A DNA stretch of 64,000 nt. Origin: Paenirhodobacter hankyongi (GTDB lineage: Bacteria > Pseudomonadota > Alphaproteobacteria > Rhodobacterales > Rhodobacteraceae). The position numbers and the translations under genes are program-made. The notes under the pieces were generated by a model. That model saw only the letters and a list, made by a program, of their open reading frames with translations, was not told where the DNA came from and did no database searches. Shown in pieces: positions 868-15,790 of the stretch. The stretch's first letter is position 1. Every line of letters starts with the position of its first letter. Location of the stretch: assembly GCF_003664585.1 (NCBI RefSeq), contig NZ_RCHI01000006.1:62001-126000 (forward strand), given 5' to 3'.

Positions 868-868
868 G

Positions 869-2416: not shown

Positions 2417-2449
2417 AAAAAAGCCCTCCGCGCTGCGGGGGGCTTTTTC
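2417..2449 (+). terminator. Intrinsic terminator after the small membrane protein gene
   Basis: AAAAAGCCC (2418-2426) pairs with GGGCTTTTT (2440-2448) around a GC-rich loop, giving a hairpin with a terminal T run. It lies 22 bases after the stop codon. Confidence 0.85.
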
Positions 2450-2489
2450 ATTGGGTGGCGGAAACCGCAGCAACCGTCGGGGCGTGAAT

Positions 2490-2675
2490 TTCCCGAGAGC
2501 CTGACAAGTCAGGTGGGGGCCAGGTAACGAGACCAGGATCTCGACAGAGCCAGCCCCCTCAGGAATGGTTATCGGCCACTGGAAAAGGGCCCCATTGACG
2601 CGAAGAGCAGTAACCGCCACGGCCAGAGATAGGCGTGTGACCGCGCTTCGGCAAGGGGGCAGGGGCTGGCTTTGC
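2490..2675. ncRNA. Candidate structured RNA in the intergenic region upstream of mmcB (unidentified)
   Basis: The gap between 2450 and 2714 has no convincing ORF but several perfect inverted repeats. CCTGAC/GTCAGG lies at 2500-2513. GCCAGCCCC (2549-2557) pairs with GGGGCTGGC (2662-2670). GGTTA (2567-2571) pairs with TAACC (2611-2615). Together these would fold into a long rod with a closing stem, in the size range of 6S RNA. I cannot match it to 6S, SRP, RNase P or tmRNA consensus blocks, and the transcribed strand is undetermined. Confidence 0.3.
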
Positions 2676-2688
2676 GGGCTGGACAAAT

Positions 2689-2703
2689 GTTTACGTTTCG
2701 TTC
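2689..2703 (+). promoter_or_regulatory. LexA-box-like site upstream of mmcB
   Basis: GTTT-N7-GTTC differs by one base from the alphaproteobacterial LexA consensus GTTC-N7-GTTC. It lies 11 bp before the mmcB start. mmcB is a known SOS gene in Caulobacter, which makes the site plausible. Confidence 0.5.
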
Positions 2704-2714
2704 ACATTCGCCCC

Positions 2715-3185
2715 ATGTCCCAGGATCTCACCCCCGGTCAGCTTCTCGCCTGCGGCGCCTGCCGCTGCCTTGTCGATCACGGCTTCGCCTGCGTGACCGA
2801 ACTGGTGCCGAAGCCGGGGCTTCGCGTCGACGTGATGGCGCTTGGCCGCAAGGGCGAGATCTGGGTGGTCGAATGCAAGTCGGGGCGGGCCGATTTCACC
2901 TCGGATCACAAATGGCACGGCTATCTCGACTATGCCGACCGCTTCTTCTGGGCGGTGGATGCCGATTTCCCGGCCGAGATCCTGCCCGCCGACACCGGGC
3001 TGATCCGCGCCGACCGCTTCGGCGGCGAGATCGCGCGCATGGCGCCCGAGGTGCGGCTGGCGCCGGCGCGGCGCAAGGCGGTGACGCAGGGCTTTGCCCG
3101 CACCGCGGCGCTGCGGCTGCAGGGCCGCACCGACCCCGGCCTGCCGCTGGCGCCGGGGCCGGCGGGGGTTACTTTTTACCCTTAG
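2715..3185 (+). CDS. mmcB: MmcB-family DNA repair protein
   Basis: A 156-aa protein of the MmcB family, which is needed for mitomycin C resistance and is SOS-regulated in Caulobacter. It has a restriction-endonuclease-like core: LRVDVMALG near residue 38 and WVVECKSGRADF near residues 50-61, the latter carrying the E-x-K metal-binding pattern. SDHKWHGYLDYADRFFWAVD follows. ATG 2715 gives the usual family length, although no good Shine-Dalgarno is seen. The 3' end overlaps the convergent gene at 3169 by 17 bp. Confidence 0.85.
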   Translation: MSQDLTPGQLLACGACRCLVDHGFACVTELVPKPGLRVDVMALGRKGEIWVVECKSGRADFTSDHKWHGYLDYADRFFWAVDADFPAEILPADTGLIRADRFGGEIARMAPEVRLAPARRKAVTQGFARTAALRLQGRTDPGLPLAPGPAGVTFYP

Positions 3186-3405
3186 GCTTCTGGCCCTTGC
3201 CGGACTTGCCGCTCTGGTCCTCGGCGATGGCGCGGGCCTGCTCGGCCGCAGCCATCAGTTCCTCGGCGATGTCTTCGGCCTCTTCGGGGTCGAAGTCGAA
3301 GGGGAACTCGAAATCCTCGCCGACGATGTAGATGCGCACCATGCCGTGATCGGTCGGCCCGATCTGCAGGTCACCGGCGATGTCGCTTTGCTTGTTGATG
3401 CTCAT
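3169..3405 (-). CDS. DUF6324-type small acidic protein
   Basis: A 78-aa protein with a beta-rich start (DLQIGPTDHGMVRIYIVGEDFEFPFDF), an acidic helix (PEEAEDIAEELMAAAEQA) and a Lys/Gly-rich tail. It resembles a short family conserved in Rhodobacterales whose function is not known. I chose the ATG at 3405 because GGAGG lies just upstream on this strand; a longer form starting at 3447 lacks such support. Confidence 0.7.
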   Translation of the reverse strand: MSINKQSDIAGDLQIGPTDHGMVRIYIVGEDFEFPFDFDPEEAEDIAEELMAAAEQARAIAEDQSGKSGKGQKPKGKK

Positions 3406-3533
3406 GGGGTGGCCTCCGCAACTGTCGAGCACGTTGGCTAACGCCAAGCCGGGCGCGAAGCAACGGAAAATGCCGAAAGGGGCGTTTCCGCCCCTTGCAA
3501 TCCCGCGCGTCTGCCGCTAAATCCCCGCGCAGT

Positions 3534-3610
3534 GCCGCCTTAGCTCAGTTGGTTAGAGCACCAGATTGTGGATCTGGGGGTCTCCCGTTCGAACCGGGAA
3601 GGCGGTACCA
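3534..3610 (+). tRNA. tRNA-His (anticodon GUG)
   Basis: A 77-nt cloverleaf. The acceptor GCCGCCT (3534-3540) pairs with AGGCGGT (3600-3606) with a G-U first pair. The D stem is GCTC...GAGC, the anticodon loop ATTGTGGAT gives GUG, the T arm is CCCGTTCGAACCGGG, then A73 and an encoded CCA. There is no G at -1 and the discriminator is A rather than C. That is the atypical form known from one alphaproteobacterial clade, whose HisRS has adapted to it. The 3' half is the attachment site of the element that follows. Confidence 0.95.
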
Positions 3611-3611
3611 T
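3566..3611 (+). repeat. attL: 46-bp direct repeat within the tRNA-His 3' half
   Basis: This stretch from the anticodon loop through CCA plus one base is repeated exactly at 14598-14643. The element therefore brought a copy of the tRNA 3' end that keeps the gene intact after integration. Confidence 0.92.
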
Positions 3612-3616
3612 TCATC

Positions 3617-4783
3617 TCACTGAACTCCTTTGGTTTTGCGGTCGGTGCCGGCGCTCGCTTGCGCATTGGTTTGCAGCCGGTTTGCAAAAGCTGTTTCCGG
3701 TGCGTTCTCGAAACGCAGAATCGCGGCCTTCGCGATCGCTTCCGTCGATGCCAGATAGTGCCGCAGGATGCGGTTCGCGCTTTCCAGCGTGTGCCCGGTG
3801 ATCGAGCACACTTGCGGGATTGTGCAGCCGGCCTCGGTCAACAGCGTCACGGCCGTTCCGCGCAGGTCGTTGAAGTGCAGGAACCCCTGCTTCTCTTCCT
3901 TGCTCAGGTCCTCGAAGGGCTTCGGATAGAAGCCCGCGGCCTGCATGTGCCGGCGCCAGGCCTTGCCAAGTTCCTTGTCGTTTCGCTCGGTGTGCCAGGG
4001 GCGGCCATCGGCTCGGGTGAGGATGAAGGGGCCCTGCTTGGGCATGGCGTCCAGCATCCGTTTCAGCGCGGCCGAGGCGGGGACGGGCACCTTGGCCTTC
4101 GTCTTCGACTGAACCAGGCGGATGACCTCACCGTCAAAGTCCGACCAGCGCAGGCGGATCAGGTCGCCATACCGCTGCCCGGTGTGGATCGCGAGGATAA
4201 GTGCCTGTTGCAGCGGTAGGGGAGCACCGGCCATGAACCGAGCAATGTCAGCCTCGGTCCAGATGATTTCGGAACGGTCGCCCGTATAGGCGCGCTCGAA
4301 GCCATCCAGAGGGTTGCGGGCAATCTGCCCGCGCCGCTTCGCCTCGTTGAACACCGCGCACAGGACCGTCATGCGGTTGTCGGCCTCCCGCGGGCGGTCG
4401 AAGGCGATCTCCTCGTGATAGTCGATGAAGACCGCATTCACCCTCGGGCTTTCGAGCGCCTTGATCGGCAAGGTGCCGAGGCGCGCCTCGATCGCCGTCA
4501 GCATCCGCAGATATTCCCGCTTGGTCGCTTCCGACTTCGGCTTGCCCTTCTTGGTGTGGGTGAACTTGCGCCCAGTCGTGTATTCCCGGATCAGCGCGGC
4601 AACGGTGCCGGTGTCTCGGGCCGGGGACTTTTCGGCTTCGAGATAGGCCGCCAGGAACTCGGGGCTGCCCTTCTCGCCGGGCAGGCGCGCGCCTGTGGCC
4701 CGGTGATACCAGTAGGTGCGCCGGCTGCCATCGGCCAAGGTCTTGTAGGTCGGGAACACGCCCTTGATCGTCACCTTAGCCAT
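3617..4783 (-). CDS. int: Tyrosine-family site-specific integrase
   Basis: Catalyses integration and excision at the tRNA-His att sites. The 388-aa protein has an N-terminal arm-type/SAM-like region (about residues 60-160, with an Arg/Lys-rich GRKFTHTKKGKPKSEATKRE stretch). The C-terminal catalytic domain shows R204 (HTGQRYGDL), R308 in FNDLRGT, H331 (ITGH) and the nucleophile Y343 (RHYLAS). The box II histidine position is Asn (NDLR instead of HDLR), a variant I believe occurs in related alphaproteobacterial integrases. It stops 6 bp from the tRNA end, the normal position for an integrase at attL, and its start overlaps the preceding small ORF by 8 bp. Confidence 0.93.
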   Translation of the reverse strand: MAKVTIKGVFPTYKTLADGSRRTYWYHRATGARLPGEKGSPEFLAAYLEAEKSPARDTGTVAALIREYTTGRKFTHTKKGKPKSEATKREYLRMLTAIEARLGTLPIKALESPRVNAVFIDYHEEIAFDRPREADNRMTVLCAVFNEAKRRGQIARNPLDGFERAYTGDRSEIIWTEADIARFMAGAPLPLQQALILAIHTGQRYGDLIRLRWSDFDGEVIRLVQSKTKAKVPVPASAALKRMLDAMPKQGPFILTRADGRPWHTERNDKELGKAWRRHMQAAGFYPKPFEDLSKEEKQGFLHFNDLRGTAVTLLTEAGCTIPQVCSITGHTLESANRILRHYLASTEAIAKAAILRFENAPETAFANRLQTNAQASAGTDRKTKGVQ

Positions 4784-4961
4784 TGTTCCTCATCCAGCGT
4801 TCAAGCGTGGCGTCAGCTTCGTTTTCCTTCGCATCCATCGTCTTGATGTGAATGCTGCCATCCGGCCCGACAACAATGCCGGTGACGGGCAAGCCCATGT
4901 CCTGGGCTGCCTTCACCAGCTTCTTGAGGTCGGGAACACGGAACGGCAGAGGCTCAGCCAC
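4776..4961 (-). CDS. Small hypothetical protein coupled to the integrase
   Basis: A 61-aa protein with a likely GTG start one base after the gpW-like gene stop; it overlaps the integrase start by 8 bp. Sequence features are a helix (VPDLKKLVKAAQDMG), a two-strand element (VTGIVVGPDGSIHIKT) and an acidic end ending in LERWMRNNG. Short proteins of this form often precede integrases in alphaproteobacterial elements. An excisionase-like role is possible but nothing in the sequence proves it. Confidence 0.6.
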   Translation of the reverse strand: MAEPLPFRVPDLKKLVKAAQDMGLPVTGIVVGPDGSIHIKTMDAKENEADATLERWMRNNG

Positions 4962-4962
4962 G

Positions 4963-5184
4963 TCACACCCCCTTTGAGCTCGAGAACCTGACCACGTTCG
5001 AGGTGAGCGAGGTGCCGGTGGCGCGACGAATGCGTACCTCCAGATCACCAAGGGCCGCAGCCATCTGCTCGTCACTTCTGAACTCGATGCGTTCCCGACC
5101 GCACTCGACCACCTTGACCCCCTTGCCGCGGGCAAGGATCAGCCTGTCACGCATGTCGATCAGTTCGGACAGATCAATGGCCAT
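4963..5184 (-). CDS. gpW-like phage head-tail joining protein
   Basis: A 73-aa protein like lambda gpW, which plugs the portal after DNA packaging and forms the surface to which a tail docks. It shows the gpW pattern: an N-terminal helix (LSELIDMRDRLILARGKG), a central beta hairpin (VKVVECGRERIEFRS) and a C-terminal helix (AAALGDLEVRIRRATG). The start ATG overlaps the capsid gene stop (TGATG at 5182-5186). It completes the head module without any tail gene following. Confidence 0.8.
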   Translation of the reverse strand: MAIDLSELIDMRDRLILARGKGVKVVECGRERIEFRSDEQMAAALGDLEVRIRRATGTSLTSNVVRFSSSKGV

Positions 5185-6935
5185 CACACACCCTCGTTCT
5201 TCTGCCAGCCGCGGAAGTCGAGCCAGCCGGCACCGAAGTCGAGGCGCACCTTGAACTGGACACCATCGACCTCGAAGCCGGTGCGCGTTTCGACCTGCGG
5301 GCCCGGCGCGCCTTCAAGGTAGGCATATTCAAGCCCATCGATCGTGGCGGGGTCGGCCGCCAGATACCATTCCGTGCCATTCAGACGCGGCTCGACGATC
5401 AGCGACAGGTTGCCGAAGGGGTTCACGTCCTCCGTCTTCGTCGCGTTGATCTGGGTCAGGATCTGCTCGGCGAGGGTCTCTAGCTCGGGGCCGACCAGCA
5501 GGAAGCGAGGCGTCGCGTTGATCAGGACGCCGAGCGGGGTGGTCTGCCGGCGCATCGCCAAGCGGCGAGCCGAAAGCGTGGTGAGGCTCGGCGCCGCGCC
5601 GGTCTCGGCGAGGTTGCCGCGGTCGGCGTGAAACACCGGCTTGCCGTCCGACATGGCCGGGTTCTTCGTCACCATGCCGACCAGAATGTCAGCCTGGAAA
5701 GCGCTGGCGGCAGTGCCGATCTTGTTCGGGATCGTGGTGAAGGCGCCGAGGTCATCGTTCACGATGGCCTGACGGGTAATCCCGAAGATCTTGCCGAAGG
5801 TCTCGATCTTGTAGCTCTCGGCGCTTTCGTCGATCGTGCTGCTCTTGAATTCGCCACCTTCCGGGACCTTTTCGAGCGTCGAGAACTCCCCCATGGCAAT
5901 CGAGCTCTTGGCGCGGAAGTCGCGGGCGGAGGACTGACGCGCGAGTTGGCGGATACCCGAGGGCGCCGCCTCATAGGCGCGGCGCAACTCGCGGCCGACG
6001 GCATCGCCCAGGATCAGCGGGAAGTCAGAGGTGCCGTGCAGCCCGGTCATGGCGCGGTTCAGGATCGCGTCTTGCGACAGGCCGGTGGTCGCCTGGCCGG
6101 AACGCTGCACCGATGCACGGGCGTGATCCATGATGCTCATATGCGCGAAATCCCGCGCGGCGCCGGAAAGATCGTGCTCGGGGTGAGACCGCGCAAACAG
6201 CGCCTCGCCGGCGCGGGCGGCGATCACGGCAGGGTCGGTGTTGTCGGTGCCGATCGTGGCGCGGGTGGTGCGCGTGGCCGAGGCGGCCGACCGGCGCTGC
6301 ATCTCATCGAGGGCGGCGGCGCGAACGTCATCGAGGCTCGCCTCGGCGTCGATCTGGGCATCCGCCCAGGAGCGCGTGAGGCCGGCGGTCTCGGCGATGG
6401 TGCGGATCGCGCCATTGATCTCGGCGCGGGTCTGCATGGTCTGTTCGAGGGTTTCGGGCATGGTGGTGTTCCCCTTGCGGAAATGGGCACCGGCATCGGC
6501 CGGCACCGGGACAACGGACACCTCGATCGGTGTCCAGCGGATTGCGGCGCGGATACGGTCGTTGCCGCGCCTCTCGTCTTTCCACTCGGCCACGCTGTAG
6601 CCGATGGACAGGCCGCGCAGGGTGCCGTCCGCAATATCGGTCAGCACCGCCTTGGCGGCATCGTTGCTGCGGAAGCGCATCCGCACCCACAGCCCTTCCG
6701 AGCGGATCTCGGCCGCCTCGACAACGCCGAGCTGGTCGCTGGTCGAGGCGGAGCGATGCGCATCGAGAACCGGGGCCCCGATCAGCCGCGACAGGTCGGC
6801 GCCGGCGAGGTCCAGCCGCTCGATGAAGCCCGGGCGGCGGACTTCGGCCCCGGTCGAAACGATCGCCTCGACGGTGCGGGCCTCGGTGTCGACGGTCGAG
6901 GCGGCGGGGGCGGCGGCGCGAAGGTGAAGCGTCAT
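5184..6935 (-). CDS. Prohead protease / major capsid protein fusion
   Basis: A 583-aa polyprotein with two phage head functions. Residues 1-150 are a HK97-type prohead serine protease: H60 in VLDAHR and the catalytic S110 in TLRGLSIGYSV. Residues about 155-270 are Gln/Glu/Arg-rich and helical, like a scaffolding segment. From about 290 to 583 it is a major capsid protein (AIVNDDLGAFTTIPNKIG, LVGPELETLAEQIL, WYLAADPATIDGLEYAYLEG). Self-cleavage during prohead maturation would be expected to release the capsid subunit. It overlaps the portal gene by 4 bp upstream and gpW downstream. Confidence 0.88.
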   Translation of the reverse strand: MTLHLRAAAPAASTVDTEARTVEAIVSTGAEVRRPGFIERLDLAGADLSRLIGAPVLDAHRSASTSDQLGVVEAAEIRSEGLWVRMRFRSNDAAKAVLTDIADGTLRGLSIGYSVAEWKDERRGNDRIRAAIRWTPIEVSVVPVPADAGAHFRKGNTTMPETLEQTMQTRAEINGAIRTIAETAGLTRSWADAQIDAEASLDDVRAAALDEMQRRSAASATRTTRATIGTDNTDPAVIAARAGEALFARSHPEHDLSGAARDFAHMSIMDHARASVQRSGQATTGLSQDAILNRAMTGLHGTSDFPLILGDAVGRELRRAYEAAPSGIRQLARQSSARDFRAKSSIAMGEFSTLEKVPEGGEFKSSTIDESAESYKIETFGKIFGITRQAIVNDDLGAFTTIPNKIGTAASAFQADILVGMVTKNPAMSDGKPVFHADRGNLAETGAAPSLTTLSARRLAMRRQTTPLGVLINATPRFLLVGPELETLAEQILTQINATKTEDVNPFGNLSLIVEPRLNGTEWYLAADPATIDGLEYAYLEGAPGPQVETRTGFEVDGVQFKVRLDFGAGWLDFRGWQKNEGV

Positions 6936-8248
6936 GCGGGCACCTCCGCGGCCTGCGGGCGCATCGTGTCGCGGGCGCGCTCCTCGTCCAGCTCGTCAAT
7001 GTCGCGGCCGCGGCCGGCCACGACCTCCTCGCGCGATTTCAGGCCGGCGGCGATTGCCGCCACATCGGCCGTCACCTCGTTCTGCGGATCGACCCAAGCC
7101 CAGCCCGGCGCCACGAAGCGCACGGCGTGGTAATCGGCGAGGTCCGTGGGGGTGACGGGAAGTTCCCCGGCAAGGGCGCGGACGTCGGTCCAGCGCTTCC
7201 ACAGCGGGCGGAGGAACTGCGCCTCGATCAGGTTTTGCTGCATCGCCTCGGCGCGGCGGCGGAACTCCAGCATCCCGACGCGGGCCGAGCTGTAGTTCGC
7301 TTCGCCCAGATCGCCGGTCAGCGCCTCGAAGGTCAGGCCGACGCCGGCCGCGATCTCGCGGTCCTGGGCGCGCAGGAACTCGATTGCCTGGGCGAGCCCC
7401 TGACCCGGCTGCGAGAAGGTCACGTCCGCGCCCGTCGGCAGGATACGCATCGCACCGGGTTCGAGGGCAACGTTCATCGTCCCGTCCTCGGCCGCGAAGC
7501 CGGCCGCGCTGCCGTCGGGGTCATGGATGAAGCCGGTGATCAGCGAGGCAACCTTGAGCTGCATCAGCATGGCGTCCGAGGCCTCGTCGCGGTCGCGCAG
7601 CTTGAGCAGCACCGGCGTGAGCCAGCTCAGGCCGCGCACCTGGCCGGGAAACAGCGTGTCGAAGATGTGCAGCATGTCCTGCGCCGGCACGCGGACCGCG
7701 GCGCTGTAGGTCGCGAACGGCGTTCCTGGGGCATCGCGCAGAACGTGATAGGCCACGACCTGATCGGCCGCATCGAACTCGATCCCGGCGACAATCCGCG
7801 CCCCGTTGCCGAGGTCGCGGGTCAGGGACGGGTCAATCTGGTCGGCGGCCAGCAGCTTCGGGCGGAACGTGCCGCCCTCGCCCACGACCAGCTGAACGAA
7901 GGCCTCGCCGTCGCGGACAACGCCGCGGGCAAGCGGCAGCATGATGGGGCGGGTCACCGCCTCGAAGGCTTCGGAGAGGGCGCGGCGCTCGGCCGGGTCG
8001 GGGTGCTGCGGGCGCGCCTGCCAGCCCTTGCCGACCAGCGCCGACGCCAGACACTCCACGATCCGGTTGCCAAGTGCGGTGTTGAGGTAAAGCGCCGCCG
8101 CCCGGGCCTTCGACGCCCCGCGGGCGGCAAGCGTCTGCTGCTGAGGGGCCGTCAGCACAGCAGCCCCCTTCCAGCGATCGCCGCCGCCCCCCGCCTCGAT
8201 CCCGGAGCGCTTGAACAGCCTCTCGATGATGTTGAAAAGGAAGGCCAT
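6932..8248 (-). CDS. Phage portal protein (lambda family)
   Basis: A 438-aa portal, the dodecameric ring through which DNA enters the head and to which head-tail joiners attach. Portal-family features include KARAAALYLNTALGNRIVECLAS near residue 50, ARGVVRDGEAFVQLV near residue 110, DMLHIFDTLFPGQVRGLSWL around residue 190 and FEALTGDLGEANYSSARVGMLEFRR around residue 310. The length is somewhat below lambda gpB. It lies 6 bp downstream of the 193-aa gene. Confidence 0.88.
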   Translation of the reverse strand: MAFLFNIIERLFKRSGIEAGGGGDRWKGAAVLTAPQQQTLAARGASKARAAALYLNTALGNRIVECLASALVGKGWQARPQHPDPAERRALSEAFEAVTRPIMLPLARGVVRDGEAFVQLVVGEGGTFRPKLLAADQIDPSLTRDLGNGARIVAGIEFDAADQVVAYHVLRDAPGTPFATYSAAVRVPAQDMLHIFDTLFPGQVRGLSWLTPVLLKLRDRDEASDAMLMQLKVASLITGFIHDPDGSAAGFAAEDGTMNVALEPGAMRILPTGADVTFSQPGQGLAQAIEFLRAQDREIAAGVGLTFEALTGDLGEANYSSARVGMLEFRRRAEAMQQNLIEAQFLRPLWKRWTDVRALAGELPVTPTDLADYHAVRFVAPGWAWVDPQNEVTADVAAIAAGLKSREEVVAGRGRDIDELDEERARDTMRPQAAEVPA

Positions 8249-8254
8249 TTGCCG

Positions 8255-8836
8255 TTACTCGTCCCGGTCCCAACCGTTGAGGAGCGCGCGACGCGCAGTT
8301 TCGGCTTTCTTGAACCACTCCGGATAGCCGGTCAGGTCTTCGGGCACCGAATGCACTTCGCCTTCCGGCAAGCCGAAGTCACGGGCTTCGCGCAGAACCT
8401 TGTGCGCGATCTTCGTGGCGGAAAGCGTCAGAACCGACCGCACGCGGATCGTGGGGTCGATCATCTCGGGCAGCTTCTCGAGCTGGTCCTTGATGTCCTG
8501 CCAGCGCCCGGCGAGCACGTAGGTGCAGGTCCAGTCCTCGGGCGCATCGTCCCAGTCATAGCGCACCAGAGCAATGAACAGCTCCTCGTCCCCGGTGTAG
8601 GCGAACGGGCTCAGCGGATAGAGCTTGTCGATGGCCTGTTTCGCAAGGGTGGAGGCGCCGGCGAGGTCGGTCCCGTCGGCGGCATCCAGAAGCGCCTGGA
8701 GCTGGAAGGCGTTGCCGATCGTGTAATCCGACCAGTTGCGCTCTTCGATGATGAACGGGAGGAAGCCGCGGGCGGAATACATCTCGAAGGCTTTCGGAGT
8801 GCAGCCGGTGACGGCCAGGAGTGCTTTGCGTTTCAT
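8255..8836 (-). CDS. Hypothetical protein with MerR-like N-terminal helix-turn-helix
   Basis: A 193-aa protein. The first 50 residues (LLAVTGCTPKAFEMYSARG, then a long helix around AFQLQALLDAA) look like a MerR/AlpA-type DNA-binding domain. The rest is rich in aromatic and acidic residues (FAYTGDEELFIALVRYDWDD) and has no recognised fold. It is in line with the portal and capsid genes. A regulator of head-gene transcription is possible. No homolog with known function comes to mind. Confidence 0.6.
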   Translation of the reverse strand: MKRKALLAVTGCTPKAFEMYSARGFLPFIIEERNWSDYTIGNAFQLQALLDAADGTDLAGASTLAKQAIDKLYPLSPFAYTGDEELFIALVRYDWDDAPEDWTCTYVLAGRWQDIKDQLEKLPEMIDPTIRVRSVLTLSATKIAHKVLREARDFGLPEGEVHSVPEDLTGYPEWFKKAETARRALLNGWDRDE

Positions 8837-8927
8837 GTTAAATCCCCTCTAGGTGTGTGGAGAATACAGGAATGCAGGTCACCACTCAAGACGTGTGCAC
8901 TCTTTTTGTGTGGATCTTTGGTCCCGC

Positions 8928-9206
8928 TCAGTGCCACCCGCCCCCGCCCGGAAACCAGTTCAGCGCCCCGGCGTAACCGATCATGCGGCAGTCGTTCGGG
9001 CCCATGGGGATGCCCGGGGCGTCCTGAATGGTGATGGCGTAGCGCTCGACCCCCTCGGGCAGGGTCGGGCGGAAGTGCTGACGCATCATCTCGGCGATTT
9101 CCTCGGCGCGCTCTTCGAAGCTTGGCGCGGGAAGGGCGAGCATGGGCGCGGGAAGGCCGATCAGGCCGAGGGCCGGGGCGGCGGCGAGGAAGCTGCGGCG
9201 TTTCAT
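8928..9206 (-). CDS. Small predicted exported protein (Tat-like signal)
   Basis: A 92-aa protein starting MKRRSFLAAAPALGLIG, a twin-arginine-like signal. A short acidic helical segment (FEERAEEIAEMMRQHF) and an end rich in Gly follow. Its start overlaps the stop of the 63-aa gene by 4 bp (9203-9206), so both are probably translated together from the leftward promoter of the Xre switch. The function is unknown. Confidence 0.55.
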   Translation of the reverse strand: MKRRSFLAAAPALGLIGLPAPMLALPAPSFEERAEEIAEMMRQHFRPTLPEGVERYAITIQDAPGIPMGPNDCRMIGYAGALNWFPGGGGWH

Positions 9207-9394
9207 GCCCGGGCCTCCATCAGCTTGCAGGTCTGGCGCAGGGCCGAGCGGATGTAGGCACGGGCCTCGCGTTCGGTCTGGCTGTAGCCGGCCGGGCGCT
9301 CGGTCGCGTCGAGCGCGAGCGCGAGGCAGTCGTGGATGACGTCAAGGCGGGCGGCAGGCAAGCCGGGGGCGGCTGCCGGAACATGGTTCGGCAT
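9203..9394 (-). CDS. Small hypothetical protein, first gene leftward of the switch
   Basis: A 63-aa mostly helical protein (ARLDVIHDCLALALDATE, SQTEREARAYIRSALRQTCKLMEA). It is the first gene of the leftward transcript facing xre. Similar short proteins occur in Rhodobacterales prophages. No function can be given. Confidence 0.5.
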   Translation of the reverse strand: MPNHVPAAAPGLPAARLDVIHDCLALALDATERPAGYSQTEREARAYIRSALRQTCKLMEARA

Positions 9395-9405
9395 TACGGG
9401 CTCCG

Positions 9406-9434
9406 TTGAGTGTTTTTCCTATTCTTGATATAAA
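9406..9434 (+). promoter_or_regulatory. Sigma70-type promoter for xre
   Basis: TTGAGT (9406-9411), a 17-bp spacer and TATAAA (9429-9434) form a near-consensus promoter pointing at the xre start at 9474. Confidence 0.6.
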
Positions 9435-9444
9435 TCGCTCAATC

Positions 9445-9457
9445 TGACTGAAAGTCA
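9445..9457. promoter_or_regulatory. Candidate repressor operator between the divergent promoters
   Basis: TGACT-GAA-AGTCA is a perfect inverted repeat just after the predicted xre transcription start. On the minus strand its TTGACT (9453-9458) could serve as the -35 of a leftward promoter, so one bound repressor could control both directions. TCAATC repeats at 9439 and 9465 flank it. Confidence 0.45.
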
Positions 9458-9473
9458 ATAGGTATCAATCAGA

Positions 9474-9725
9474 ATGAGCGAAAACACTCACCCAACGGGG
9501 CGCCAGATCGCAGCGGCACGCACTTTGCTCGGGATGCCCCAAGCAGAGCTCGCGGCTGCCGCGAAGGTGTCTGTGCCAACGCTGCGCAGGATGGAAGCCA
9601 GCGAAGGGCCTGCGTCAGGCATGGCGAACAATGTTGATGCCGTGTGCCGGGCCCTCGAAGCCGCCGGCGTCGAGTTCATCCCGGAGAACGGCGGTGGTGC
9701 TGGGGTGCGGTTGCGGAAAACGTGA
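9474..9725 (+). CDS. Xre-family helix-turn-helix repressor
   Basis: An 83-aa DNA-binding protein. The HTH is at residues 8-45 (GRQIAAARTLLGMPQAELAAAAKVSVPTLRRME), followed by a short dimerisation-type tail (ALEAAGVEFIPENGG). It faces away from the head genes and has its own promoter and a palindrome at its transcription start, the layout of an immunity repressor. ImmA/IrrE follows at 9878, and such peptidases commonly inactivate Xre repressors in integrative elements. Confidence 0.8.
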   Translation: MSENTHPTGRQIAAARTLLGMPQAELAAAAKVSVPTLRRMEASEGPASGMANNVDAVCRALEAAGVEFIPENGGGAGVRLRKT

Positions 9726-9796
9726 TCACATTTTGGTCAAAAGTGGGCGGAACTCTGCACCGATGGCTTGATGTTTCACGTATTTCTAACATTTCG

Positions 9797-9825
9797 TTGT
9801 CAAGATCAGTTAGCTTACGTAAATA
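9797..9825 (+). promoter_or_regulatory. Predicted promoter for the immA gene pair
   Basis: TTGTCA (9797-9802), a 17-bp spacer and TAAATA (9820-9825), upstream of immA. A small hairpin CCGCTC/GAGCGG (9827-9844) lies in the leader. Confidence 0.45.
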
Positions 9826-9877
9826 GCCGCTCACAAAAGAGCGGTTGATTCTTCACTGCTGTCGAGGAGGGGATGAC

Positions 9878-10381
9878 ATGCTTGACACCATTCCCGGGCG
9901 CGTTCGGTGGGACGTCGCGAAGGCGAAGGCCGATAGCCTTACCTGCAAGTTCGAGCGTCCACCTATTCCGGTTCGGGCTATCGCTGAAGGAACTGGCGTT
10001 GATGTTGTGTTTGCTGACTTTGGGAAGCATTCCAACTCAGTGGCGGGCTTCTGTGACTTCCGAGGGGAGCGTCTGTATGTGAACCGGGACGACAAGCCGG
10101 AACGCCAGACCTTCACCATCGCGCATGAACTCGGTCACTGGCTGTTGCATAAGGAGCTTTTTGAACGATCCCCAGATGCCTATGCGGTTCTGCCGCGGCA
10201 TGCTGTGGCGAATAATCGTTCTGTGCTAGAGAAGGAAGCAAACCACTTTGCTGCGCACTTGCTTGTGCCTAGCCGGTTGCTCCGCCCTGTCATGCGGGCG
10301 TCGACTGTTTCCTCTTTGGCCGAGGCCTTCGGGGTATCCTACACCATGATGAGCTTCCGCGTCGCGAATGAAGAACGATGA
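9878..10381 (+). CDS. ImmA/IrrE-family metallopeptidase
   Basis: A 167-aa zinc peptidase of the family that cleaves Xre-type repressors (ImmA of ICEBs1) or DdrO (IrrE). The motif HELGH at residues 83-87 carries the two zinc ligands and the catalytic Glu, and EKEANHFAAHLLVPSRLL near residue 125 supplies the third ligand. ATG 9878 was chosen for the strong GAGGAGGGG 6 bases upstream. It is less GC-rich than the neighbouring head genes. Likely partners are the Xre repressor upstream and the membrane protein whose start it overlaps by 14 bp. Confidence 0.88.
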   Translation: MLDTIPGRVRWDVAKAKADSLTCKFERPPIPVRAIAEGTGVDVVFADFGKHSNSVAGFCDFRGERLYVNRDDKPERQTFTIAHELGHWLLHKELFERSPDAYAVLPRHAVANNRSVLEKEANHFAAHLLVPSRLLRPVMRASTVSSLAEAFGVSYTMMSFRVANEER

Positions 10382-10796
10382 CGTGAGCGAGACAGAGACG
10401 GCAGCACCTAGTGGGCTGCCGTCCGTTGAGGATCTCCTCCAAGAGGCTGTAGCTAAAAATGATGTGGCTGCGGCTGCACAAAGGGATGCAGAAGACGACT
10501 ATGATGAGACGATCAAAGCACAGTCCATCAAGAATGAGACTGCTTATGCTCATCTAAAGGGCGTTCAAGACCACTATGCGAACAAGACCGAATGGTCAGG
10601 GTTTCTCAGGAACCTCCTGTGTGGGATGATCGCCTTTCAATGGCTTTTGCTAGCGCTCGTCGGCTTCGGCATCTGGGATTTCACGAAATATCAATGGCTT
10701 TTGCCGATCTTGCTTGTCCAGAACCTGGGGCAGATCATTGGGCTTGCCGTTATTGTTGTCCGCTCACTGTTCAAAGACATTGCGCCTAAGCAGTAA
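10368..10796 (+). CDS. Two-helix membrane protein paired with the ImmA peptidase
   Basis: A 142-aa protein. Residues 1-75 are charged and helical (EDLLQEAVAKNDVAAAAQRDAEDDYDET). Two membrane helices follow, near 82-104 (LLCGMIAFQWLLLALVGFGIW) and 110-133 (WLLPILLVQNLGQIIGLAVIVV), with a basic end. It overlaps immA by 14 bp and stops immediately against the convergent terminase gene. The base composition is more AT-rich than in the head genes. A role in superinfection exclusion or in sensing is conceivable; nothing in the sequence settles it. Confidence 0.65.
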   Translation: MKNDDVSETETAAPSGLPSVEDLLQEAVAKNDVAAAAQRDAEDDYDETIKAQSIKNETAYAHLKGVQDHYANKTEWSGFLRNLLCGMIAFQWLLLALVGFGIWDFTKYQWLLPILLVQNLGQIIGLAVIVVRSLFKDIAPKQ

Positions 10797-12581
10797 TCAC
10801 CGCCTTCGCATCCAGTCCGACTGCAGCACTGGCCCCTTACGCGTGGTCGGCGCCGCCTCGGCCCGGGCCAGTTCCTCGCGCCGCACCTCGGGGTTGATGT
10901 TCACCATCTGCCGCGCGGCGAAGGCGTAGACGGTGCAGTCCAGCGCCTCGGCCCGGCGCCCGGGGATGCGCTCGAAGTTGCGCAGCGGCTGGCCGCGGGA
11001 ATAGCGCACCACCGCCCGTTCCGAGGCCACCTGCTCATACCAGACCGCGGGCAGATCCTGCGAGAACCGGACCTGACCGGGGCGCGGCAGGCGGGCGAAG
11101 AGCTGCGTCTTGACCGTGTCCACGCCGACGATCCACAGCCGGGCGCCGGTCTTCGTCTTCGAGCCGGCCCGCTCGATCACCGGGCGGTTGCCCGACGCGC
11201 CCTTGATCGCGAAGACCTTGCGCGCGGTCCGGGGGCGGCAGAAGCCGGTGACCATGTTCATCGAGGTGCCGTCGCCCGCGTCGATCGCGGTGGCGTCGAT
11301 CGCCATCTTGCCGCCGAGCGCGTGCGGGAAACGCTCGCGCAAGAGGGCATCGAGTTCTGCCCAGGTCCCTTCCGCGTCGAACGGGCCCCAGATCACGCGA
11401 TGGCCGAGCACCAGCATGGCGCCGCTTTCGGTCCAGCCGACATAGGTCAGTTCCAGCCGGTCGTGCTGCACGTCGCAGCCCAGGGTGAGCACCAGCACCT
11501 CGGCCGGGATCTGTGCCAGGCCGAAGGGCTCGGCCCGCGCCGCCATGCTGTTCTCGTCGAGCTCGTCGCCCTCCGAGCGCCAGCCCTGGCCGAGGATCGT
11601 GTTCACGAAGGTCTGCAACAAGGTGGGATCGTCCTTCGAGGCGAGGAACTCGGTCGCCAGCTTGCCCCATGCCGCGTTCGCGTGAAGGCTGATCAGCGCA
11701 TTCATGCGAAAGCCCGCGTGGCCCTCGACCTCGGGGCGGGTGACGCGCCAGCGGCCGGCCTCGATCATCGCGGGCTTGTGGCGCTCGCTCACCTCGGCCG
11801 CGCAATGCGGGCAGCACCAGAAGGCCGCCTCGGGCCGCCCCTCGGGCCAGCTGATCTGCGCCCACTCGATTTCCGTGAAGGTGCCGCAGTGCGGGCACGG
11901 CACCTCGAAGACGCGCTGATCCGACTGGGCGTAGGCGCGCAGGACGTGGCTCGTTTCCTCATGCACGGGGGTGGAACCGAGGATGATCTTGCGATCGGGG
12001 AAGGACAGGGTGCGGCGTTCGGCCAGCAGCAGCGGCGAGCCTTCGGGCGTGGGGGCCATGCCGTCCACCTCGTCCATCAGCAGGAAGCGGACGTTGTGCC
12101 GGCGCAGGTTGCGCGGCGCCTTCGCGGCAACCACCTTGAGCGAGCCGCCCGGGAAGCGGCGCGACAGGAGGGTGTTGCGGCCGGCCTCGTCCTGCTCGGT
12201 CCCGAGGGCGCTCGCCACGGCCGGCGAGGCCGCGAAGATCGGCTCGATATCCGACACCACGTAGTCGCGGCAGTCGCTCTCGGCCGGAAGCAGGCAGAGG
12301 ATGGGCGCGGGGTCGTTCGCCACGAAGCTTGCCACGGCCGAGGACAGGAGCGTGGTGAAGCCGACGCGCACCGGCTTGACCAGGGTAACGCGCTCGATCA
12401 GCGGGTCACCGATCGCGTCGGCAATCTCGCGCTGGAAGGGCCAGAGGCGGACGGGGCCGGGCTGGCTTGAGACGCCCTCGGGCAAGCGAACCTCGCGCTC
12501 GATCCAGTCGGAGAGGCGCAGACGCGGCGGGGGCGTCAACGAGGCGAACGCGGCGGCGCAGAGCTCGTCAATCGTGGGCAT
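10797..12581 (-). CDS. Phage terminase large subunit (gpA-like)
   Basis: The 594-aa motor that packages and cuts DNA into proheads. The ATPase half has an atypical Walker A (LVKPVRVGFTTLLS, residues 68-80), as in gpA relatives, and Walker B LLMDEVD at 167-173. A zinc-finger-like pair CPHC/CPHCAAE follows near 250-280. The C-terminal nuclease region begins with LTLGCDVQHDRLELTYVGW. ATG 12581 overlaps the small subunit stop by 14 bp; the longer upstream reading frame is not credible. Confidence 0.92.
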   Translation of the reverse strand: MPTIDELCAAAFASLTPPPRLRLSDWIEREVRLPEGVSSQPGPVRLWPFQREIADAIGDPLIERVTLVKPVRVGFTTLLSSAVASFVANDPAPILCLLPAESDCRDYVVSDIEPIFAASPAVASALGTEQDEAGRNTLLSRRFPGGSLKVVAAKAPRNLRRHNVRFLLMDEVDGMAPTPEGSPLLLAERRTLSFPDRKIILGSTPVHEETSHVLRAYAQSDQRVFEVPCPHCGTFTEIEWAQISWPEGRPEAAFWCCPHCAAEVSERHKPAMIEAGRWRVTRPEVEGHAGFRMNALISLHANAAWGKLATEFLASKDDPTLLQTFVNTILGQGWRSEGDELDENSMAARAEPFGLAQIPAEVLVLTLGCDVQHDRLELTYVGWTESGAMLVLGHRVIWGPFDAEGTWAELDALLRERFPHALGGKMAIDATAIDAGDGTSMNMVTGFCRPRTARKVFAIKGASGNRPVIERAGSKTKTGARLWIVGVDTVKTQLFARLPRPGQVRFSQDLPAVWYEQVASERAVVRYSRGQPLRNFERIPGRRAEALDCTVYAFAARQMVNINPEVRREELARAEAAPTTRKGPVLQSDWMRRR

Positions 12582-13062
12582 GGGCAAGTTCCTCCAGGGC
12601 GGTGCGCAGTTCGCGGTCAATCGTCTCGACCTCGGCCGCGTCGAGGTGGGGCAGCGCCGAGCGGACGCGCGAGGGCACGGCGAGGATGCGCGATCGCACC
12701 TGGCGCAGGATCTCGGTCCAGCCGCGCAGCACCTCGGCGGCCTCGACCAGCTCGCCCCGGGCCACGGCGTTGCGGCGCGCGGCCTCGTCGGCCTTCTCGC
12801 GGGCAAGGCGGGCGCGGGCGGCAGTCAGGCTCTCGGCCTGTTCCTCATTGCCCCACCGCGCCGCCGTGCTGCGAAGATGCGCGGCATAGGCCCGGACCGT
12901 GGCGCGCAGGTCGTAGCTGTCGTGCGCGAGGTGAACCGCGATGCCGCGTTTCTTGAGGTCGGTCAGGGTGGCGGGCGAAATATCGAGAAGGTCGCACAGA
13001 TCGGCGCCGCCGATCCGCTGGACCGCGCGCCCGCCGAGCTCGAACTCGTCCAGGATCTTCAT
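12568..13062 (-). CDS. Phage terminase small subunit (Nu1-like)
   Basis: A 164-aa DNA-recognition subunit. The N-terminal region has the Nu1 winged-helix signature (GGADLCDLLDISPATLTDLKKRGI, residues 18-41). A long charged helix for oligomerisation and large-subunit contact follows (SLTAARARLAREKADEAARRNAVARGELV). It directly precedes and overlaps the large terminase. Its own pac/cos specificity would decide whether this element packages itself. Confidence 0.85.
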   Translation of the reverse strand: MKILDEFELGGRAVQRIGGADLCDLLDISPATLTDLKKRGIAVHLAHDSYDLRATVRAYAAHLRSTAARWGNEEQAESLTAARARLAREKADEAARRNAVARGELVEAAEVLRGWTEILRQVRSRILAVPSRVRSALPHLDAAEVETIDRELRTALEELAHAHD

Positions 13063-13080
13063 GAATTTAACCCTTTGATT

Positions 13081-13302
13081 TTATTGTGCATAGGCTGAAA
13101 CGTCGGGGTGCGAATTACCCGCGGCGTGAGGGTGTGGAAGGACCCGTGCGGGCTGTTGGGGCGGGAAGCCGCCTCGCTCGTGGCGGCGCAGGCGGTCGGC
13201 CAGCTGGCCGATGTGCTGCCATCCGTCATCGGGCGGGATCTGCGCAGAAGCCATCGCGGCTTCGTTGTCTCTGTTGTCGCTCATGTGTGTGCCGTCTCTC
13301 AT
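13081..13302 (-). CDS. Small hypothetical protein upstream of terminase
   Basis: A 73-aa basic, His/Pro-rich protein with DDGWQHIGQLADRLRRHERGGFPPQQPARVLP. I kept the ATG at 13302 because AGGAAAGG lies about 8 bases upstream; an internal ATG at 13284 is possible. It ends 18 bp before the small terminase gene. The function is unknown. Confidence 0.5.
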   Translation of the reverse strand: MRDGTHMSDNRDNEAAMASAQIPPDDGWQHIGQLADRLRRHERGGFPPQQPARVLPHPHAAGNSHPDVSAYAQ

Positions 13303-13568
13303 CTCTTAACCTTTCCTGTTCTGCTCGATGGTGAGGCCATTGTGACGGGCATAGGGCGACCAGCCCGAGGCATTGCCTCAGGTTGGTCCCTATCCCGCCG
13401 CGTGAAGTCCTGCTCGACGGAGCCGGCCACCGCTTAGGGCGCCCGAGGTCGTTTGACCCCGCCTCGGGCTTGCTCGCGACTTGAAGGCGCCGGGTCTGGC
13501 ACCTGATCCCCCGCTTCGAGCTTTCGGGCTGCGGTTGGCCTATGGGATCGCCCCGTGGCAGGCCTGTA

Positions 13569-13609
13569 ATGTGTCGAACGCCACCGTCTGAACCGTCCGA
13601 TCGACACAT
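13569..13609. repeat. 9-bp inverted repeat in the element's longest gene-free stretch
   Basis: ATGTGTCGA (13569-13577) and TCGACACAT (13601-13609) are perfect arms with a 23-bp spacer. They lie between the 90-aa gene (stop at 13618) and the 73-aa gene start at 13302. The surrounding 13303-13617 has no convincing ORF. The repeat could be a terminator, a regulator site or a cos/pac or replication signal. Confidence 0.35.
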
Positions 13610-13617
13610 GGTTTCGG

Positions 13618-13890
13618 TCAGGCGCCGGTGCCCTCCTCGTCCTCCTCGATCGGGTTCCAGTCGTCATCGTCTTCGGGGCGCTGCTCGCGGTAGAGGTCGG
13701 CAACCATGCGCTGCATGATGCCGAGCTGCTTGGCCGAGGGCGCCCAGTCCTTGCGCCGGGCTTGCCGGGCGATGCTGAGTGCGAAGTTCCGTGCCCACCC
13801 CTCGGGGGCGCTACGGATCACCGCCTTCCAGCTCCAGAGCAGTTCTTCGAGGCTCGGCGCATTCGCGGAAATCTGGCTGTGCATCGTCAT
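13618..13890 (-). CDS. Small hypothetical element protein with acidic tail
   Basis: A 90-aa protein with helical LEELLWSWKAVIRSAPEGWARNFALSIARQARR, then LGIMQRMVADLYREQR, and a strongly acidic end (PEDDDDWNPIEEDEEG). The Trp/Arg pattern and acidic tail suggest a nucleic-acid-related or mimic protein, but no family is recognised. It lies 2 bp downstream of the next small gene in the same direction. Confidence 0.5.
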   Translation of the reverse strand: MTMHSQISANAPSLEELLWSWKAVIRSAPEGWARNFALSIARQARRKDWAPSAKQLGIMQRMVADLYREQRPEDDDDWNPIEEDEEGTGA

Positions 13891-13892
13891 GG

Positions 13893-14063
13893 TCAGAACT
13901 CGACCTCGCTGATGTGAAACCAGAACTTCGCCTGATCCTGCGGGGTCATCGCCTCGAAGGCGGCGAGGGCGTAGGCCTTCAGCTCGTCAACGCTCGCGGC
14001 TTCGGCCCAGCTGCGGGCGGCGCGCATGGCGTCCTTGCCGTGGAGTTGCTGCCGATCGGTCAT
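13893..14063 (-). CDS. Small hypothetical element protein
   Basis: A 56-aa protein (ATG 14063) with SVDELKAYALAAFEAMTPQDQAKFWFHISEVEF. It resembles the end of the next protein upstream (VNELAAYVAAGLDRL, then RKRLFWAIWKSFGPEDRRAF), so the two may be diverged duplicates of one helical module. They overlap by 4 bp. The function is unknown. Confidence 0.5.
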   Translation of the reverse strand: MTDRQQLHGKDAMRAARSWAEAASVDELKAYALAAFEAMTPQDQAKFWFHISEVEF

Positions 14064-14476
14064 GCGCGGCCCCTCCCGTTCACCTGGGAGAGGAAGGCGC
14101 GGCGGTCCTCCGGGCCGAAGCTTTTCCAGATCGCCCAGAACAGGCGCTTGCGGGCGTTGCGGGCGAGCGCGAGCCCACGCAGCCGGTCGAGCCCCGCGGC
14201 AACATAGGCCGCGAGTTCGTTGACCGGGGCGCTTTCCGCCCAGATCATCGCTTCGCCGGCCGTGGTGCCGAAGGGGACGCCGAGCGCAGGCCCGCCCGTG
14301 CTCAGCGTGTCGAGGTATCCCGCGCAGACCTGAGCCGCGTCCTCGGGGTGGCAGTGGTCGAGCGCGAACCAGACGGCCCTTGCCCACTCGGCACGCAGCC
14401 GGTAGCCTTCCCCCTTGAAGCGAGCCGCTTCGAAGTCCGCCCCGGTCGCGCCCGCCAGCGCGCCGGGGTTTTTCAT
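14060..14476 (-). CDS. Hypothetical element protein next to attR
   Basis: A 138-aa helical protein (RLRAEWARAVWFALDHCHPEDAAQVCAGYL, then APVNELAAYVAAGLDRLRGLALARNARK). The frame stays open upstream into the att site, but ATG 14476 is the first credible start inside the element; no strong Shine-Dalgarno is visible there. It is the first gene of the right-end minus-strand group. It could be a replication or packaging helper; no homology was recognised. Confidence 0.5.
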   Translation of the reverse strand: MKNPGALAGATGADFEAARFKGEGYRLRAEWARAVWFALDHCHPEDAAQVCAGYLDTLSTGGPALGVPFGTTAGEAMIWAESAPVNELAAYVAAGLDRLRGLALARNARKRLFWAIWKSFGPEDRRAFLSQVNGRGRA

Positions 14477-14597
14477 TTTCAGCGGCTGCGGAGCCTGCGG
14501 GGTGGTTTGCGGGCCTTCGCTAACCGATTGATTTGAAAGGTTGTCGTTGAAGAGCGGTTTGCGAAATTCTCGTTGAAGATCAACGGGAGCGCAAAGC

Positions 14598-14643
14598 TTG
14601 TGGATCTGGGGGTCTCCCGTTCGAACCGGGAAGGCGGTACCAT
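14598..14643 (+). repeat. attR: second copy of the 46-bp tRNA-His repeat
   Basis: Identical to 3566-3611. It contains only the 3' half of the tRNA, so it is not a functional tRNA gene. It marks the right boundary of the element. Confidence 0.92.
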
Positions 14644-14758
14644 CTCCCCTCGCGCATTGTCCTGCCAGCTCCGGCGCTATTGCGCCGCTTTGGTGCAGGT
14701 TTCGGCACCGGTGACACTGCCGCCCGGCGCCTGCTCCGAACACGCTCGAGGGCGTGGC

Positions 14759-15691
14759 CTATCGGGCGCGCGGGCGGCGGCCGATCCGGCCGCTTGCCAG
14801 CAGCACGCCAAAGATCGCCACCGCGACGCCAATCACCTGCGTCAGATGCGGCATCCGGCCGAAGGCCGCGGCGATCAGCAGCGCCGAGACCGGCACCAGG
14901 TTGAACAGCACCGAGGTCGCCGCGGGGCCGCGCACTGAGATCCCGACCTGCCAGAACAGATAGGCCAGCACCGAGCCGATCAGCGCCATCCACAGGATCG
15001 CGCCCCAGGCGGTGGGCGAGGCTGCGGCGGCGATCGCGAGCGGGTCTTCGAGGGCGAAGGCGGTGATCAATAGCGTCACGGCCCCGGCAAGCATCGTCCA
15101 GGCCGAGGTCTCGAGCGGGCTGGCGTCCCGCACCCAGCGACGGCAGCCGATGGTGTAAAGCGCCCAGGCCAGGCTGCCCGCGAAGATCAGCAGATCGCCC
15201 GGGGCAAAGCGCGCGCCGGAAAAGGCGCCGACGGTCAGCGCCACGCCGATCAGGCTGATCGCCATGCCGAAAAGCGCCCGCCGGGCTGGCCAGCGTCCGC
15301 CGATCAGCGCCTCGAGCAGGTTCGTGGTGAGCGGGCTCGTCCCCATGATCAGCGCCGCGGTGACCGGGCTCGAGGTGCGCATGCCAAGGAAAAGTGCGGC
15401 GTTGAAGCCCGCGACCCCCACCACGCCCAGCACGAGGAAGGCCAGGGCATTGCGCCGCAACGCCCGCAGCCCCGGTCCCTCGGCCAGGCGCAGCCACAGC
15501 AGGATGCCGAGCGCGGCAAAGACGAAGCGCCCGGCGGCGGCGCTCCAGGGCGGCAGCTCCTGCAGAACGATCCGCGTCGCTTCGAAATTCGAGCCCCAGA
15601 ACACCGCGGCCAGCGCGCTCAGCACCAAGGCGGAGCCTTCGATGCGGCGGGTCTCGGCGTGGGGGTTTTCGGTCAGGTCGGTGAGGGACAT
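14759..15691 (-). CDS. EamA/DMT-family transporter
   Basis: A 310-aa inner-membrane exporter with about ten hydrophobic helices arranged as two EamA repeats. The first runs around residues 20-150 (ALAAVFWGSNFEATRIV, TSPLTTNLLEALIGG) and the second from about 165 (LLIFAGSLAWALYTIGCRRWV, WMALIGSVLAYLFWQVGI). The substrate is unknown; relatives export amino acids or metabolites. It is divergent from the LysR gene at 15791, which probably regulates it. Confidence 0.85.
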   Translation of the reverse strand: MSLTDLTENPHAETRRIEGSALVLSALAAVFWGSNFEATRIVLQELPPWSAAAGRFVFAALGILLWLRLAEGPGLRALRRNALAFLVLGVVGVAGFNAALFLGMRTSSPVTAALIMGTSPLTTNLLEALIGGRWPARRALFGMAISLIGVALTVGAFSGARFAPGDLLIFAGSLAWALYTIGCRRWVRDASPLETSAWTMLAGAVTLLITAFALEDPLAIAAAASPTAWGAILWMALIGSVLAYLFWQVGISVRGPAATSVLFNLVPVSALLIAAAFGRMPHLTQVIGVAVAIFGVLLASGRIGRRPRAR

Positions 15692-15790
15692 CTCGGGTCT
15701 CCATCAGGTGGGAATGCCCCTGTCTGCCATTCCGTTCATTCGCTGAATATGGCAGGCTTCTTTCACCTGTTTTCCGAAAACGGAAAGACC

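Follow-up and report, generated by a model that had tools for sequence, protein, structure and literature searches.

Capsid-forming phage-inducible chromosomal islands (cf-PICIs), which were reportedly described by Alqurainy et al. in 2023, provide the main comparison for the element reported here. According to published accounts, cf-PICIs are integrated islands that encode their own capsid, protease, portal, connector and terminases but no tail, use the tails of helper phages and have a mean size of about 14 kb (PMC10690885, PMC10803314, PMC13230959). These accounts also describe a packaging module with an HNH endonuclease (PMC10690885), a capsid of the PF05065 family (PMC13230959), and main hosts in Enterobacteriaceae, Pasteurella, Morganellaceae and Firmicutes, Alphaproteobacteria not being among those named there (PMC10803314). 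We analyzed a 64,000-nucleotide stretch of Paenirhodobacter hankyongi DNA (from contig NZ_RCHI01000006.1; hereafter the window), which carries an 11.03-kb element integrated at a tRNA-His gene. Like a cf-PICI, this element has a tyrosine integrase, attachment (att) repeats, capsid, protease, portal, connector and both terminases and no recognised tail. Unlike a cf-PICI, in which the head is of the PF05065 type with HNH, its head is of the lambda/Mu type and comprises a GpA terminase, a PF05136 portal, an S78-PF25209/gpT capsid fusion and gpW. Judged from its sequence, the element is very probably a phage satellite, integrated and intact. It has its own genes for head, packaging motor and gpW adaptor, and would depend on another phage, either resident in the same cell or infecting it, for tails, lysis and probably replication. 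A preliminary description had proposed a cf-PICI-like satellite in Rhodobacterales; the way of working is supported, membership of the cf-PICIs is doubtful, and the hosts extend far wider than Rhodobacterales. Because its head proteins lie outside the cf-PICI families and no HNH was found, the element apparently represents a separate, undescribed alphaproteobacterial family of capsid-forming satellites. No such satellite from Alphaproteobacteria was found in a literature search, which covered few subscription journals. The way of life is thus a known one, and what is new are head proteins from other families, the hosts and the signs that head cassettes can be exchanged.

Other described systems share parts of this design. 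The Streptomyces satellites MulchRoom and MiniFlayer, likened here by description, also encode their own terminases, portal, capsid and adaptor and no recognised replicase, and MulchRoom has a lysogeny module and forms virions with a tail of helper length; they differ in host phylum, virulent helper phages and direct terminal repeats (PMC10690885), and are a further independent case of capsid-encoding satellites. The Vibrio satellite cf-PISP TG54 is likewise small, tail-less and capsid-forming, but it is episomal with a PF05065 capsid nested in the cf-PICIs, whereas the window element is integrated and has other head families (PMC13230959). P4-like satellites and the Staphylococcus aureus pathogenicity islands (SaPIs) and PICIs share insertion at tRNA or att sites, helper dependence and defence cargo, but use the capsid of the helper, whereas the window element encodes its own capsid and portal. 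Gene transfer agents (GTAs) have tail genes, vertical inheritance and no integrase; the window element has an integrase with att repeats and no recognised tail genes. Finally, RcMamaDuck-type Rhodobacter phages (OP009278) encode homologous TerS, TerL, gpW, portal and protease-capsid fusion proteins (36% capsid identity), and a homologue of the RcMamaDuck decoration protein is present in many satellites, but these phages possess complete modules for tail and lysis, their gpW precedes the portal, and TerL and portal are not separated by a gene slot.

The head and packaging genes at tRNA-His

The element is bounded by a direct repeat (D1) of 49 nt at 98% identity, of which 46 bp are identical; the copy next to the integrase (3566-3611) and the distal copy (14598-14643) are spaced 11,032 bp. 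The repeat consists of the 3' half of the tRNA-His (GTG) gene plus one base, the complete gene (3534-3610, plus strand; ARAGORN) being the host attachment site. The preliminary description had listed perfect 46-bp repeats around an integrase, both terminases, portal, protease-capsid fusion and a gpW-like joiner, in intact, tightly overlapped genes with no tail, lysis or replication gene. These points were borne out: Pfam and PHROGs matches identified each of the proteins, all element genes are open and tightly overlapped, and these databases gave no recognisable gene for a tail, lysis or replication in the element. The minus-strand gene order from the distal end is orf138, orf56, orf90, TerS, TerL, orf63, orf92, ORF193, portal, protease-capsid, gpW, orf61 and integrase, with an opposite-strand cassette at 9474-10796 (a helix-turn-helix (HTH) protein, an M78 peptidase and orf142) separating TerL from the portal side.

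All head and packaging genes lie on the minus strand. The small terminase subunit has 164 aa (12568-13062; phrog_57, 5e-27) and the large subunit, of the lambda gpA type, has 594 aa (10797-12581; PF05876 and PF20454) with Pfam matches to GpA_ATPase (3e-86) and GpA_nuclease (4e-85). The 438-aa portal (6932-8248) belongs to the lambda family (PF05136, 1.5e-69). A 583-aa protein (5184-6935) fuses an S78 prohead protease (PF04586, 1.7e-8) to an HK97-fold major capsid protein (PF25209, 4e-60; phrog_4523, 4e-187), the fold being recovered by fold search as well. The 73-aa head-completion adaptor of the gpW/Ad1 type (4963-5184) matched phrog_2545, 'head-tail adaptor Ad1' (6e-12), and its family profile matched lambda gpW (PDB 1hyw, E = 0.0023). 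The capsid sequence profile matched Mu-gpT-type capsids in the PDB and did not match the capsid of the cf-PICI EcCI2 (PDB 9gyi), which was found among many HK97 folds in a fold search with a capsid model of moderate confidence (pLDDT 71, used for fold only). No Pfam match to HNH was detected in the element proteins scanned, which left out orf63, orf90, orf56 and orf61. With respect to PICI regulation and replication genes (AlpA, pri-rep and an Stl-like repressor), an HTH gene is present, and AlpA and primase genes were not recognised in the window copy.

Upstream of terS, the stretch that most relatives have in common is a bipartite motif, whose copy in the window, GGGTCCTTCC-N-CGGGTAATTCGCACCCCG, lies at 13102-13146 on the minus strand just before terS. 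The motif consists of GGGTCCTTCC, 14-20 bases and then CGGG...CCCCG, with imperfect dyad symmetry. Of 102 satellites, 39 have the sequence GGGTCCTTC inside the 500-bp terS region, where chance would give about 0.013 per locus, and its plus-strand copies numbered only 44 in 1.7 Mb of loci. Some tailed phages carry it as well. The motif is a candidate cos site, and its position fits one of the lambda type.

Tail-less relatives across Alphaproteobacteria

The capsid served as query against 198 same-family genomes, of which about 35 neighbourhoods were read, and a capsid alignment was used to scan one genome per species (84,980 species) and IMG/VR; counts from the two wide sources are lower bounds. 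Relatives at 37-76% capsid identity share the tail-less design. The order TerS-TerL-slot-portal-capsid-gpW-integrase-tRNA occurred in at least 85 non-redundant genome loci across Alphaproteobacteria, with the integrase directly 3' of the head genes in at least 47 and a tRNA gene beside the element in at least 38 (Phe, Met, Glu, Arg, Cys, Ser, Tyr, Gln, His, Asn, Thr, Val and Leu); the same gene order at other tRNA sites, a check proposed earlier, was thus found. Att repeats of 15 bp or more were present in at least 25 loci at about a dozen tRNA types. Matches of 15 bp between a tRNA region and about 7 kb should arise by chance less than once in a thousand. The att-bounded spans were 9,725-12,509 bp, which leaves no room for a tail module. 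A larger size class at tRNA-Met (18.1 kb between 47-bp att repeats) is also tail-less, and satellites occur on plasmids too; the public annotation of Paracoccus sp. SMMA_5_TC plasmid pNSM5TCa lists toprim, a hypothetical protein at the TerS position, TerL, cytosine methyltransferase, HNH, methyltransferase, portal, fusion capsid, a small gene and DUF2190, without a tail. Since the same design recurs across att-bounded loci, the larger tRNA-Met class and plasmids, the tail-less state, as read from these sequences, is a condition of the family. No tail-tube or minT14 homologue was found in any satellite by profile search; a few satellites encode FII-type or minT13 homologues and most encode gpW only. 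No terminal repeats, a sign of circular packaged genomes, were found in the IMG/VR contigs.

Comparison with tailed phages revealed consistent differences. Tail-bearing relatives showed at most about 48% capsid identity, mostly over part of the protein. The gpW gene follows the capsid gene in at least 166 tail-less loci, whereas in tail-bearing loci it lies before the portal or was undetected, with one clear exception and leaving aside a recombined remnant; in RcMamaDuck, Stenotrophomonas phage S1 and prophages L062-L066, gpW precedes the portal and TerL is close to the head genes. The slot between TerL and the portal is mostly 0.7-3.6 kb in satellites (median 1.9 kb) compared with about 0.2 kb in tailed relatives. 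A branch with 100% SH-aLRT support in the portal tree separated 75 satellite rows from 22 rows of phages or phage-like loci, and only one locus (L229) was misplaced. The capsid and TerL trees agreed broadly, with 3 and 2 changes compared with shuffled means of 17.7 and 16.4, respectively.

These results bear directly on the alternative raised in the preliminary description, a cryptic prophage that has lost its modules for tail, lysis and replication by deletion in this strain. The head genes are clearly phage-derived, tailed Rhodobacteraceae prophages (L062-L067) carry homologous heads, and one recombined remnant lies beside tail fragments (L044). However, the tail-less state, gene order and size are common to insertions that occurred independently, dozens of them, in several bacterial orders. 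The head genes are all open and evolve under purifying selection (dN/dS 0.04-0.17), and integrase and immunity genes have been swapped while the head stays. A search for close relatives with a tail and lysis module between the same genes came out negative, every close relative being tail-less, and we consider deletion in this strain very unlikely. Still less likely is a self-sufficient virus without a tail, spread as heads through lysis and an entry route of a kind not yet known: the head and packaging set is complete and some relatives have their own primase or helicase, but gpW, known to complete the head so that a tail can join, is kept, no lysis gene was recognised and a few relatives carry FII- or minT13-type head-tail genes. 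Rhodobacterales are known for GTAs, and their presence among the hosts, together with head genes maintained under selection, could point to a head-only particle domesticated by the bacterium, GTA-like or encapsulin-like. The intact integrase, clean att repeats, many insertion sites, patchy presence (in 25 of the 198 same-family genomes), modular exchange and plasmid copies argue against such a function, as do the tails and vertical inheritance of GTAs, and stable syntenic presence across a clade with loss of the integrase was not seen; this is the least likely of the explanations considered.

Several observations nevertheless weigh against a working satellite of a uniformly tail-less family. 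The search for tails relied on the tail genes of three reference phages, so that the att-bounded size is the stronger argument. The earlier expectation that all copies would lack tail genes held for every close relative but not for L229 (IMGVR_UViG_2911330653_000002, 1671-19649), which at 37% capsid identity and the base of the tRNA-Met group combines a tail module with the satellite position of gpW. L229 may descend from the ancestral phage or be a satellite with a regained tail; because it has the satellite gene order plus a tail, tail-lessness perhaps arose twice or was reversed once, and tail loss would then not be a single event. A search of the genus for a tRNA-His gene without an insertion found none; the right flank was syntenic in G046, G200 and G199, but did not adjoin tRNA-His there. 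A replication gene was unrecognised in the window copy, though many relatives have one. Lastly, co-occurrence with Rc-type tailed prophages was weak (10 of 25 compared with 37 of 173 genomes, P = 0.04; P = 0.21 without two doubtful cases).

Exchange of modules and apparent exchange of head cassettes

Locus L071, an IMG/VR contig from another genome and a near-twin of the window element, encodes TerS, TerL, portal and capsid proteins 94-99% identical to those of the window, together with a different integrase, different slot content and a diverged gpW (70%). The ratio of non-synonymous to synonymous substitutions (dN/dS) between the two was 0.044 for TerS, 0.115 for TerL, 0.126 for the capsid and 0.166 for the portal, a pattern indicating purifying selection on the head genes. 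Locus L084 (Sinirhodobacter populi) is a tail-less element also at tRNA-His, with 48-bp att repeats, and its integrase and orf61 proteins are 82% and 72% identical to those of the window. Since L071 keeps the head with another integrase and slot, while L084 shares the integrase and orf61, these comparisons indicate that head, integrase and immunity genes are swapped in modular fashion, a behaviour also seen in lambdoid phages and PICIs. Among the five head genes compared in the window-L071 pair, gpW was the most diverged; this fits adaptation to different tails but is no proof of it; gpW also adjoins the recombination border of the integrase.

The integration module comprises the 388-aa tyrosine integrase (3617-4783, minus strand; PF00589, 6e-10) and the adjoining small gene orf61 (4776-4961, minus strand, GTG start), whose conservation with the integrase in L084 makes it a probable excisionase or directionality factor. 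The slot begins with the Xre-type HTH gene (9474-9725, plus strand; PF01381, 5e-6), a repressor candidate, followed by an M78/ImmA-IrrE-type metallopeptidase (9845-10381, plus strand; PF06114, 6e-22) closest to CapP (PADLOC capP, 5e-26) and by orf142 (10368-10796, plus strand), a cargo protein without a family match in which two probable membrane helices were discerned by eye. HTH/M78 pairs such as ImmR/ImmA and CapH/CapP are damage-sensitive repressor switches, and for this reason the pair may be the induction switch of the element. Slots of several relatives hold genes for defence against phages, namely a type IIG restriction-modification gene (L041), a cytosine (C5) methylase with HNH and an Eco57I-type methylase (L040), GmrSD (L061; also present in L058) or, in L054, a PDC-M36A-like protein. 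The TerL-portal slot offers a compact place to seek anti-phage systems.

Between the slot and the portal, all on the minus strand, lie orf63 (9203-9394), orf92 (8928-9206) and ORF193 (8255-8836). The proteins orf63 and orf92 are small and conserved; orf92 adjoins the regulatory region and is 96% identical in L071 and 74% in L075. ORF193 is regulator-like and is kept directly upstream of the portal in one subclade; its N-terminal sequence suggests a MerR-like pattern, and a fold search gave no significant match (CueR only at E = 0.44). At the left end, again on the minus strand, are orf90 (13618-13890), common to elements with different heads, orf56 (13893-14063) and orf138 (14060-14476), after which some relatives have a helicase gene that is not in the window copy. 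Many relatives carry replication genes at this end (an AAA_25 helicase with or without Prim-Pol, VapE, a PriCT primase or an O-like initiator). The left ends of the window element, L037 and L039 contain small proteins only, and these three probably depend on the helper or host for replication.

Analysis of a tandem array revealed a second head type on related elements. In L156 (IMGVR_UViG_3300013136_000118, 826-12693), two satellites lie in tandem at a tRNA-Met att site: a lambda-type satellite is followed by 16 nt of the tRNA-Met 3' end and then by an element with an HK97-type head, comprising a relative of orf138, an AAA_25 helicase, TerL (PF03354), capsid (PF05065) and portal (PF04860). A search of same-family genomes with the L156 left-end gene, together with the neighbourhoods, identified the HK97-type set in L273, L276, L277, L278, L279 and L283, the Pfam families being verified on L277 and L276. 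L277 measures 9,971 bp between its 19-bp repeats at tRNA-Glu. Its head cassette is unrelated, but it shares orf56 (70%, 7e-15), orf90 (40%, 7e-8) and orf63 (66%, 5e-20) with the window element; for this reason one chassis appears to carry two head cassettes of different families, and head cassettes appear to be interchangeable. Two loci may be capsid-only forms that also borrow the portal and motor: L058 (G073:C1; tRNA-Pro, 18-bp att, 9.7 kb) has an integrase, ORF193-like regulator, helicase, GmrSD and protease-capsid gene, with terminase and portal not recognised, and L269 (G037:C159) has an integrase, capsid and TerS-like gene with no TerL or portal match. A further locus, L060, has an integrase and protease-capsid gene with no recognised TerL or portal, is cut by the contig end, and is a possible capsid-only satellite.

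On balance we lean towards the view that Alphaproteobacteria harbor tail-borrowing satellites of a large and apparently undescribed group, assembled on a chassis whose parts can be exchanged: the integrase (and so site), the left-end or replication module, the opposite-strand immunity or defence slot and the whole head cassette (lambda-type in the window; HK97-type in L277, L276, L273, L278, L279, L283 and the second element of L156; capsid alone in L058 and possibly L269). If so, capsid-forming satellites arose by cassette capture more than once, head type is exchangeable and not a family trait, and head-cassette exchange on a shared chassis makes satellite origin directly testable.

Proposed life cycle, helper candidates and other loci

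For the window element, the reading as a satellite with borrowed tails predicts the following cycle. A helper phage, or DNA damage acting via the HTH/M78 pair, would lift repression; the integrase and orf61 would excise the element, and its DNA would be replicated by the helper or host. The TerS and TerL proteins would then cut at the candidate cos site and fill small self-made heads, after which gpW would close the portal and offer a surface for a siphophage head-closure protein (gpFII type) and tail, and the resulting particles would inject the satellite into new cells. Packaging into small capsids is suggested by the uniform 9.7-12.5 kb of the short-form relatives. The neck of lambda is gpW-gpFII-gpU (PMC4362835). 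Because most satellites encode only gpW and none a tail tube or minT14, the predicted helper is a siphophage with a gpW-type neck, and gpW is a testable point of tail specificity.

Contigs C22 and C24 of the host genome (L055 and L056) each contain the head region of a lambdoid prophage, in which gpW precedes the portal, and C22 also encodes CI- and CII-like regulators. The ends of these contigs match each other and are near-identical, as if a shared region had collapsed in assembly. No RcMamaDuck-type tail tube was found in the host genome, nor was the tail contig identified; the C22 and C24 prophages are helper candidates only. If the satellite reading is true, functional parasites would account for many of the small 'incomplete prophages' that annotations list for Rhodobacterales, Stappiaceae, Bradyrhizobium, Roseomonas, Sphingobium and others. 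Self-made heads with borrowed tails would then have evolved once more in Alphaproteobacteria, using head proteins from different families.

Three loci were considered as excised forms and set aside. L086 and L156 both resembled excised circles (integrase, tRNA fragment, left-end genes), but L156 proved to be the two satellites in tandem and L086 was not distinguishable from a tandem arrangement, so that no excision is claimed; the supposed attP of L211 was the sequence of a complete tRNA-Ser. We also noted loci with altered content. L044 (G101:C1, 8729-12688) is a recombined tRNA-Met-type satellite remnant fused to phage tape-measure and tail-tube fragments. L272 (G051:C4, 1010-4150) spans 3.1 kb between 48-bp repeats at tRNA-Cys, contains a left-end gene, a capsid remnant and an integrase, and is probably a collapsed satellite. 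A 6.7-kb tRNA-Met element, L270 (G026:C11, 8071-14850), has the same left-end genes and none of the known head genes. In L130 (Salipiger aestuarii), a second Prim-Pol/helicase gene lies directly behind the satellite integrase after position 13300, and this is maybe another tandem element.

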